A stretch of DNA of 37,279 bases from Gammaproteobacteria bacterium (GTDB taxonomy: Bacteria > Pseudomonadota > Gammaproteobacteria > GRL18): assembly GCA_026196615.1 (NCBI GenBank), contig JAPHSW010000098.1:1-37279 (forward strand). Direction: 5' to 3'. The notes beneath the pieces were generated by a model that was given only the letters and a program-made list of their open reading frames with translations, was not told the DNA's origin and did not search any database. A program made the translations under genes and the position numbers. Every line of letters starts with the position of its first letter. Positions within the stretch are counted from its first letter, which is position 1. Positions 33,024-37,279 of this stretch are shown one piece after another.

Positions 33024-34424
33024 TTAAGCAACACAATCTTGAATAAACTCAGTTTCAGGCCTTTTTAAAGTCACCAGCTCTTCACTACTGGTTGGATGAA
33101 TAGCCATTGTTGCATCAAAATTTGCTTTGGTCGCCCCCATGGTTATTGCCACAGCAAAGCCTTGCAACATTTCATCTACACCATCACCAATCAAATGAAT
33201 ACCCACTACACGCTCTTCATCTCCCACACAAATCAATTTCATTGCAGTGGTACTTTTATGCTTCGAAAGTGCATAACGCATAGGTGTAAAACTGGTTTTG
33301 TATATACACACTTTATGACCATACGTATCACGAGCCTGGCATTCCGTCATACCCATTGTAGCAATCGGGGGATGGCTGAAAACCACACTGGGAATTTTAT
33401 CATAATCCACTTTTGCATATATTTGTCCACCAAATAAGCGAGTAGCTAACTTGCGTCCAGCATCCACAGCCACAGGAGTTAATGCAGGTCTTCCAGTAAT
33501 ATCTCCAATGGCATAAACACCTGGTACGTTAGTATTTTCATAAGCATTCACAGGAATTATTCCATTATCATGGACATCAATACCAGCAGCCGCTAAATTT
33601 AGGCCGCTTGTATTAGGTTTACGACCAATTGCCCAAATAACCACATCATAGGTATTTTTTTGACTACCATTAACCACTTCAATACCATCTTCTTTTTGAT
33701 GTAAAGCTGATATTTTTGCCTGCATATTTAACTGAATCCCCTGATGAGACATTTCCTGCATTAATACTTCACCAACCATAGGATCAAAATGTTCCAATAA
33801 GCGTTCTTCCCGAGCATATAAACTCACATTTGATTCCAGTGTATTCATCACACCACTGAGTTCAACACCAATAAATCCACCACCAATCAAAGCGATTCGC
33901 TTAGGGTGATTATCTAAATTAAAAAACTCATCTGACGTAATACCTAACTCCGCACCAGTAATAGGAGGAATTACAGGTTGACCACCTGTTGCAATCACAA
34001 CATGATCCGCGGTATAGATTTCACCATTCACATTAATACTATGGACTCCTTCATTTGAATCAACAAAAGATCCATAGCCATTAATATGTTCAATTCCACT
34101 ATCATCAACATAGTTATCCCAATAATTCACAATATCATTCACATAGCTTGTTCTTCCTTTCATTAACTGTGACCAATTTATACCTTCATATTGAACATTA
34201 ATACCAAATCCTCCAGCATCATGGCTGGCATGTGCCAAATGTGCGGCATACCACATCACTTTTTTAGGAACACACCCCTGATTGACACAGGTTCCACCCA
34301 TACGAGCAGCTTCAACAATAGCAACTCGCTGACCAAGCTGAGCAGCTGTTTCCGCTACCGCTAATCCACCACTTCCTCCCCCGATAGTGATCAGCTCAAA
34401 ATGTTTGTTTTCTGAATATTTCAT
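33024..34424 (-). CDS. gor: Glutathione-disulfide reductase
   Basis: FAD- and NADPH-dependent enzyme that regenerates glutathione. The 466 residues begin with the FAD fold [20 protein letters not shown], followed by the redox-active pair in [13 protein letters not shown] (Cys46 and Cys51). The NADPH fold is [16 protein letters not shown] with an arginine shortly downstream (YAREERLL). The C-terminal FAD segment is [19 protein letters not shown], and His443 in AIHPTSSEE completes the active site, so the enzyme should work. GAGAG precedes the ATG. Its upstream neighbour on the same strand is the prx-grx remnant. In Neisseria, prx and gor are co-transcribed under OxyR, so this gene may be OxyR-regulated; that is inference. 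Confidence 0.95.
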
Positions 34425-34490: not shown

Positions 34491-34616
34491 TTAATTATTT
34501 TCTGTCAACATTGCTTCCAGCTCTTCTGAGCCGCCAATGTATTCACCTTCAATAAAAATTGTAGTCACATCGACAAACTCACCCTGTTGGCGAGTTTTAA
34601 AAGTTACATTTGGCAC
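34491..34616 (-). pseudogene. In-frame deletion remnant of a peroxiredoxin-glutaredoxin hybrid gene
   Basis: A 41-codon frame (GTG start, TAA stop) with a good AGGAGAA ribosome site eight bases upstream. Residues 1-19, VPNVTFKTRQQGEFVDVTT, are the N-terminus of the Prx5-type half of the Prx-Grx hybrid (Haemophilus PGdx begins with a closely similar stretch). Residues 20-41 (IFIEGEYIGGSEELEAML, then TENN) are the C-terminus of its glutaredoxin half. About 195 residues, including both active sites, are missing. The junction falls near 34557-34562, and the frame is preserved. The gene lies between oxyR and gor, exactly where the intact hybrid is found in related clusters. It may be a dead remnant still translated as a micropeptide, or an assembly artefact. 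Confidence 0.75.
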
Positions 34617-34687
34617 ATTTTTACTTCTCCTGATAATTTATATTTGCCTGAATATCTGTTCATCTGGCTCATTTATTTAAGATGCAT

Positions 34688-34739
34688 ATAGTATCTAAGA
34701 TTTTAACTAATTGTTAAAATCATTTATTTCTACTACACT
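34688..34739. promoter_or_regulatory. Divergent promoters around a 9-bp dyad between oxyR and the prx-grx remnant
   Basis: A perfect dyad GATTTTAAC-TAATT-GTTAAAATC (34699-34721) is flanked by overlapping promoters. For oxyR (plus) these are TTGTTA (34711-34716), 17 bases, then TACACT (34734-34739). For the remnant and gor (minus) they are TTAACA (34712-34717), 18 bases, then TACTAT (34688-34693). The dyad contains a T-N11-A LysR-type core. It does not match the ATAG/CTAT OxyR consensus well, so OxyR binding is only a possibility. Confidence 0.45.
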
Positions 34740-34790
34740 AATAGATATTTTCGATTTATTAATTATCTGAAATTATTAAGGCCATCAATC

Positions 34791-35678
34791 ATGAATTTAC
34801 GAGAATTAGAATATTTAGTCGCTGTTGATGATGAACGTCATTTCAATCGAGCAGCTCAACGGTGTTTCGTCAGTCAGCCAACACTCAGTGGCCAGGTCAA
34901 GAAACTCGAAGATGAATTAGGTGTGCTTTTAATTGAGCGTAATACCCGTCAAGTATCAATGACTGATGTTGGTTTAGCAGTGGCTCAGCAAGCCAGAAAG
35001 ATCCTCACAGAAGTAAAAGCAATCAAAGAAATTACTCAGAGCTTTGAAGATCCCATGGCGGGTGAATTACAAGTTGGCTTAATCCCAACCGTTGCTCCTT
35101 ATTTATTACCTTTAATCATGCCGGCAGTAAACTTAAATTTTCCTAAGTTAACACTCTGGTTACATGAGTACCAAACCGCAGTACTCTTAGATAAGCTAAA
35201 TAAATCAGAACTGGACTTACTTATTCTTGCATTACCAGTTGAAACGGATGAGTTTTCAGAAATTGATCTGTTTGAAGAGTCATTCTGGTTAGCAGTACCC
35301 CATCATGAAGCATTGGGTCGTAAAAAAAATATCCACTTAATCGATTTAGATGAGCAGGAAATGTTATTACTTGAAGAAGGACATTGTTTAAGAGGTCAGG
35401 CTTTAGACGTTTGTTTCAGTGCTGGTGCCACTGAAAACAATCGCTTTCGTGCCACCAGTCTGGAAACATTAAGACATATGGTCAGTGAAGGTCTTGGTAT
35501 GACTTTATTACCCGAGCTCTCCGTACCCAAAAAACGCTCAAAAAAAGATTCAATCCAATACATTCCTTTTAATGATCCTAAACCTCGTCGACGAATTGGA
35601 TTAATCTATCGCAAAGGCAGTTATAGGGAAGAAACTTATCAACAATTGGCAAAAATAATCAAAAAATTATTTTTGTGA
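34791..35678 (+). CDS. oxyR: Hydrogen-peroxide-sensing LysR regulator OxyR
   Basis: Transcription factor activated by a disulfide formed with H2O2. The 295 residues have the LysR helix-turn-helix (MNLRELEYLVAVDDERHFNR, then FVSQPTLSGQVKKLEDELG) and the effector domain. The sensing cysteines occur in GHCLRGQALDVCF at residues 199 and 208, identical in number and spacing to E. coli OxyR. The segment FRATSLETLRHMVSEGLGMT is also typical. It is divergent from the prx-grx remnant and gor, a known arrangement in which OxyR controls both. The intact redox switch contrasts with the broken peroxidase genes in the same window. Confidence 0.95.
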   Translation: MNLRELEYLVAVDDERHFNRAAQRCFVSQPTLSGQVKKLEDELGVLLIERNTRQVSMTDVGLAVAQQARKILTEVKAIKEITQSFEDPMAGELQVGLIPTVAPYLLPLIMPAVNLNFPKLTLWLHEYQTAVLLDKLNKSELDLLILALPVETDEFSEIDLFEESFWLAVPHHEALGRKKNIHLIDLDEQEMLLLEEGHCLRGQALDVCFSAGATENNRFRATSLETLRHMVSEGLGMTLLPELSVPKKRSKKDSIQYIPFNDPKPRRRIGLIYRKGSYREETYQQLAKIIKKLFL

Positions 35679-35872: not shown

Positions 35873-35894
35873 TGATTTTACGAAATCATAGGTG
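35873..35894 (+). promoter_or_regulatory. UNCG-type hairpin abutting the ribosome site of the right-edge sensor gene
   Basis: TGATTT-TACG-AAATCA (35873-35888) is a perfect 6-bp stem closed by a UACG tetraloop, immediately followed by AGGTGG (35889-35894) and the TTG start. It could affect translation initiation; no promoter is evident in the 222-base spacer after oxyR. Confidence 0.35.
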
Positions 35895-35900
35895 GTAATC

Positions 35901-37279
35901 TTGTTTAGACTTGAATTTATTCGCAATAAACTAATAGGTCTTGCCATTACAATGTTTATTGCCGTACTCACTACCTCCGGAACTGGTGTCTATATTCTGT
36001 ACAAAACCTCTCTCTCAGAAAGAGCAGAACAACTCACAGAAATTGCCAAAATCAATGCCCTCATGCTTGAGTCTATTGCACATTTTGATAAAACACACTT
36101 CAGCGAGATGCATTCAGATAAAGATACCTACGATGCAGCACTGAGCCAAATAATAGCAGCACATAAAGTAATGAAGTTTGGTCATAGCGGTGAATTCACT
36201 TTAGCCAAAAAAGAAGGCAACAAAATTATTTTTCTAATGAGAAATCACCTTGCAGGTCTGGATGTTCCTGGATCTGTTTTATTGGATAGGGCAAATATAA
36301 ACACGCCAATGCACAGGGCACTATCAGGTGAATCTGGTTGGATGACAGGGTATGACTTCGAGGGCAAGTATGTAATGGCAGCCTATGAACCCGTCAACAT
36401 TTACAATCTTGGCATTGTAGCAAAAATAGACATGCAAGAAATTCAAGCTCCATTCATTAAAGCAAGCCTGGTGATTATTTGTCTTGCCATTCTGGTTAGC
36501 CTGGCTGCTTTGAGAATCTTTTATCAAACCAGCAAACATATATGCAAGAAATTAGAAGATAGTAACCAGCATATAATCCTACTTGCGAAAAATGCAAAAG
36601 ATATGATCTATCGAATGTCAATACCTGAGGGTATTTATGAGTATGTGAGTCCAGCTTCAACCGAACTATTTGGAGTAGCCCCAGAAGAGTTTTATCAATC
36701 ACCAAAAAAAATCAGAAACTTGATCCATCCAGATTGGCTCTCATATTTTGAAAAGCAATGGCAAAAACTTATAACTGGAGACATGCCTCCAACCTATGAA
36801 TACCAGATTATTACTCCTTTAGGTGAAACAAAATGGATAAATCAGCGAAATGTTCTAATCCTTGATGATGATAACAAACCTGTTGCAATTGAAGGCATTG
36901 TCTCTGATATCACTGAGCATAAAACTTTCATGCAGAAATTAATGCATGAAAAACAAATTGCTCAGAGTTATCTTGATATTGCAGGAGTCATAATGGTGGC
37001 TCTTGACAGCCAGGGCAATATTATTTTAATAAATCAGAAAGCATGTGAACTATTGGGTTGGAGTGAACATGAAGCAATAGGAATGAATTGGTTTGACAAC
37101 TTTCTGCCTAAGGATGCTCGTGAAGATGTTCAAAAGGTCTTTGAACAAATCATGTCAGGCAATATTGAAGCTGTAGAGTTTCATGAGAATACAATTCTGT
37201 CCAGAGATGGTAAGAAGCGCACTATAGCCTGGCACAATAGTATAGTAATGGACAGTGAAGGCAAGACAATCACCGAACT
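35901..37279 (+). CDS. Membrane sensor with periplasmic Cache-like and PAS domains, truncated by window
   Basis: Open frame from a TTG at 35901 to the right edge, 459 residues so far. The start is chosen because AGGTGG lies six bases before it and the next in-frame Met (ATG, residue 18) falls inside the first membrane helix. Order: membrane helix (about 10-32), periplasmic sensor (about 35-188, with HSGEFTLAKKEGNKIIFLMR and GESGWMTGYDFEGKYVMAAY, the sCache/dCache style), a second helix (about 193-213), a PAS domain (about 225-345, ending GIVSDITEHK) and a second PAS (about 355 onward). The output domain is outside the window; GGDEF/EAL or a histidine kinase are both possible. Confidence 0.85.
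   Translation, partial: MFRLEFIRNKLIGLAITMFIAVLTTSGTGVYILYKTSLSERAEQLTEIAKINALMLESIAHFDKTHFSEMHSDKDTYDAALSQIIAAHKVMKFGHSGEFTLAKKEGNKIIFLMRNHLAGLDVPGSVLLDRANINTPMHRALSGESGWMTGYDFEGKYVMAAYEPVNIYNLGIVAKIDMQEIQAPFIKASLVIICLAILVSLAALRIFYQTSKHICKKLEDSNQHIILLAKNAKDMIYRMSIPEGIYEYVSPASTELFGVAPEEFYQSPKKIRNLIHPDWLSYFEKQWQKLITGDMPPTYEYQIITPLGETKWINQRNVLILDDDNKPVAIEGIVSDITEHKTFMQKLMHEKQIAQSYLDIAGVIMVALDSQGNIILINQKACELLGWSEHEAIGMNWFDNFLPKDAREDVQKVFEQIMSGNIEAVEFHENTILSRDGKKRTIAWHNSIVMDSEGKTITE

Follow-up and report, generated by a model that had tools for sequence, protein, structure and literature searches.

The closest described system is that of H. influenzae, where the gene pgdX is transcribed divergently from oxyR and is regulated by OxyR (PMC3511568). 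Its product HI0572 (PGdx/PgdX, PDB 1nm3), a hybrid of Prx5 and glutaredoxin, was matched over its full length with an E value of 9.6e-108 by an intact protein of 246 aa, PGdx1, which is encoded on contig C11 of a genome from the same genus as ours (G008). As in H. influenzae, the PGdx1 gene of G008 is divergent from oxyR. In the window, the whole stretch of 37,279 nucleotides of gammaproteobacterial DNA analysed here, the corresponding place between oxyR and gor is occupied by a 41-codon open frame. Unlike HI0572, this copy lacks approximately 205 of the 246 residues, both active sites and the original start, and it is not an enzyme gene. As detailed below, it is very probably a real deletion pseudogene, the relic of pgdx1 damaged by two deletions, with an intact PGdx2 elsewhere in the genome. 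The features of the locus are as follows.

33024 to 34424, minus strand: gor, glutathione-disulfide reductase, intact (NF004776, 592 bits, cut-off 480).
34491 to 34616, minus strand: PGdx1 relic, a 41-codon open frame, formally GTG-started, matching residues 10-28 and 224-243 of G008 PGdx1.
34491 to 34559, minus strand: PGdx1 3' piece, the C-terminal glutaredoxin tail with the stop codon.
34559 to 34560, minus strand: junction at which 585 nt (195 codons, with both active-site regions) have been lost in frame, from comparison with G008 PGdx1.
34560 to 34616, minus strand: PGdx1 5' piece (old codons 10-28), 15/19 identical to G008 PGdx1.
34604 to 34618, minus strand: ATG TGC CAA ATG TAA, a four-codon dead end following from a 25-nt deletion, its ATG normally spaced from the Shine-Dalgarno sequence (AGGAG).
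34619 to 34631, minus strand: AGGAGAAGTAAAA, the Shine-Dalgarno region, retained here and conserved in G008 and G001.
34680 to 34750, no strand assigned: conserved block between oxyR and (PGdx)-gor, in the intergenic region that they share; G008, G001 and G013 have closely similar sequence, as does G022 over the oxyR-side half.
34791 to 35678, plus strand: oxyR, intact (NF008361, 382 bits, cut-off 329).

Beyond oxyR, positions 35892-37279 contain the beginning of a large sensor-like protein running past the end of the window; judged by eye, it has an N-terminal membrane segment, an apparent extracellular region and then apparent PAS-type domains.

The 41-codon frame reads, on the minus strand, (M)PNVTFKTRQQGEFVDVTT up to the junction and IFIEGEYIGGSEELEAMLTENN after it (19 and 22 residues). 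An earlier note, made from the letters alone, had taken this frame for a PGdx gene between oxyR and gor that lost its middle; the frame, its coordinates, strand and junction, and this identification were borne out by the sequence, by the flanking gor and oxyR genes and by comparison with G008. BLASTP of the 41-mer against the intact G008 protein, the ends of which read MLSNREGQNVPAVVFKTRQNGEFVDVTT...VPQIFIEGRYIGGSEELEAMFNETKS, yielded 15/19 identities (E 1e-8) for the first part and 18/23 identities (E 4e-10) for the second, the latter stretch (residues 221-243) taking in three residues left of the deletion junction. The similarity of both ends to PGdx, also claimed earlier, is thus far above chance. 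The first 19 residues, previously taken for the N-terminus, correspond to PGdx residues 10-28. A DNA search across the genus independently recovered both relic pieces in G008, where the intact orthologue is located at the same place beside an orthologous oxyR (80% protein identity to that of the window), so both ends of the relic share common descent with the PGdx genes of the oxyR-gor locus. PGdx1 also adjoins oxyR in G001, in which the gene is cut by the contig end.

In comparison to G008, 585 nt (195 codons) are absent between VDVTT and IFIEG without a change of frame, and ACA (34560-34562) is followed directly by ATT (34557-34559). The lost residues 29-223 include the peroxidatic Cys region PGAFTPTC of the Prx5-type domain and the glutaredoxin CxxC. 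The last 22 residues are all that is left of the glutaredoxin domain in the relic, which matched TIGR02190 at positions 58-78 of 79 with 20 bits, compared to a cut-off of 99. A clean crossover at the repeat ATTTTTA is insufficient on its own to explain this deletion, as the GAT GAA codons left of the repeat in G008 are also absent from the window.

The genome of the window (G000) is a draft of 288 contigs, and the true genome might hold a full pgdx1 of which the assembler skipped the middle, an option that had been raised earlier. This is very unlikely, because the junction has no repeat in the length range of assembler k-mers: the corresponding sites of G008 have a longest repeat of 7 nt, well under the usual k-mers, and when the 300 nt on either side of the junction were compared for common k-mers of 11 to 21, no exact repeat of at least 11 bases was found. 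Against it also stand a separate, independent deletion approximately 55 nt away and the finding that in the assembly, which is 99% complete, only the diverged PGdx2 corresponds to the missing middle.

This separate deletion became visible in an alignment with G008 and G001. It comprises 25 nt directly behind the Shine-Dalgarno sequence (24 nt relative to G001, which is one base shorter at that site), removing codons 1-8 and shifting the frame; the start region reads AGGAGAAATAAATATGTTATCGAATCGTGAAGGTCAAAACGTACCC in G008 and AGGAGAAGTAAAAATGTGCCA in the window. The ATG now present at 34616-34618 is not in the reading frame of the relic, and the fifth codon counted from it is a stop; the sole possible opening of the 41-codon frame is a GTG, formerly the Val-10 codon, two bases further in. 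Of the earlier statement that ribosome site, start and frame are preserved, the retained Shine-Dalgarno sequence and the in-frame junction stood; the start did not, since the normally spaced ATG is out of frame and the frame can be opened only at the GTG of old codon 10. The 25-nt loss may represent a slipped-strand deletion between short repeats, provided that the lost ancestor had AAAATGT at both ends. Taken together, the relic carries two lesions, of 585 nt and 25 nt, which abolish function and start, and a relative keeps the gene intact, as is usual for a pseudogene.

Differences between the relic and G008 are distributed as 6, 6 and 23 over codon positions 1, 2 and 3 (third position 23/35, binomial P 9e-5). 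Such an excess at third positions could speak for selection on a peptide, but it would also be expected of a gene that stayed functional through most of the period after the two lineages parted. This bias suggests that most of the divergence dates from the functional period and that the deletion is comparatively recent. Among the options considered earlier, it is the recent deletion scar that is supported.

The search for a full-length copy in the genome, also proposed in the earlier note, revealed a complete, diverged paralogue and not the missing middle. This paralogue, PGdx2 (G000:C172:6429-7166; L001, L039), is the sole full PGdx of the genome, is 59% identical to G008 PGdx1 and is divergent from a second OxyR-like LysR gene, which keeps the GHCLRDHALSAC cysteine pair. 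In the tree, PGdx1-type proteins were separated with full support from a family-specific PGdx2 clade, within which the intact copy of G000 falls. In most of the genus, PGdx2 is conserved at 84-95%. The genome also contains two gor-type genes, one in the window (33024-34424) and one at G000:C199:18259-19605; of the two types, that near oxyR is the less common in the genus.

Intact PGdx1 and PGdx2 were found together in none of the family genomes searched, a count limited by drafts such as G001 (76% complete), and the two appear to be mutually exclusive among these genomes. Among them, PGdx2 together with a PGdx1 relic was detected exclusively in the genome of the window. PGdx is followed directly by gor in G032, G037, G042, G049 and S139_76, and this is therefore likely the ancestral order. 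PGdx1 is absent beside oxyR in G004, G012 and G015; in G013 and G022, no PGdx separates oxyR from the gor gene facing it, and the oxyR-side intergenic block is conserved. No relic or scar like that of the window was detected in any of these five genomes. The oxyR-gor spacer of G013 contains a near-perfect palindromic repeat (L010:1205-1350; GTAGGATGTGGTGAGGAACGAACCGCATCAAA...), possibly a MITE or REP-like element. In G008, a second OxyR-like gene occurs without PGdx2 (L137, G008:C107), with an unrelated frame in place of the usual divergent neighbour, which is the mirror image of the situation in the window. The simplest reading is that the paralogue took over and PGdx1 was subsequently lost, and this loss was probably tolerated because the intact PGdx2 is redundant.

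It is extremely unlikely that, as the earlier note had also considered, the collapsed gene is expressed as a 41-residue micropeptide or leader peptide; the proposal that it is still translated from the GTG, so that the peptide or the act of translation tunes gor, we regard as hardly credible. The open frame, the retained Shine-Dalgarno sequence, the in-frame junction and the location in the presumed gor leader speak for such a peptide, and it counts against a mere relic that the 585-nt loss kept the frame, which happens by chance in one case out of three, and that no stop codon has arisen since. Nevertheless, the second deletion put the properly spaced ATG out of frame with a stop after four codons, leaving just the GTG two bases inward; the 41-mer keeps none of the catalytic residues; and with a z of -1.2 the local RNA fold does not stand out, giving no indication of a structured leader RNA at the relic. 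Furthermore, no stand-alone 41-residue gene was found in the genus or in any relative searched, so that the widespread family of this kind, which the earlier note had named as evidence against a collapsed gene, did not emerge, and tblastn of the 41-mer against plasmids gave only weak partial matches to its C-terminal half. Over approximately 40 codons, weak and continued selection on a peptide is still conceivable. If the peptide or its translation did tune gor, this would add a new example of a small gene that arose when an enzyme lost its core.

The deletion pseudogene thus remains the preferred reading, drawing on the homology, the two losses evident against related genomes, the intact paralogue and the neighbouring genes. 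We propose that pgdx1 formerly headed a pgdx-gor unit divergent from oxyR, from which one deletion took 585 nt in frame and another, presumably later, took 25 nt over the first codons, the loss probably being tolerated thanks to the intact PGdx2 beside the second OxyR-like regulator. The block at 34680-34750, upstream of oxyR, is presumed to be an OxyR-controlled divergent promoter; it is strongly conserved both in genomes that kept PGdx1 and in those that lost it. What remains of pgdx1 is most likely an untranslated or barely translated leader between this promoter and gor, without function beyond that of leader sequence, and OxyR control of gor would continue. The locus represents ordinary gene decay, yet provides a clean snapshot in which the stump of a displaced PGdx copy is retained alongside its paralogue in one lineage. 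It also calls for caution, as a frame left open over a deletion junction may be mistaken for a small gene.

Like bacterial pseudogenes formed by internal deletion, the relic has intact flanks, retained ends, functional neighbours and an intact paralogue elsewhere, and loss of the gene is recurrent in relatives. Unlike these, its frame has by chance stayed open across the junction, so that it resembles a small gene.
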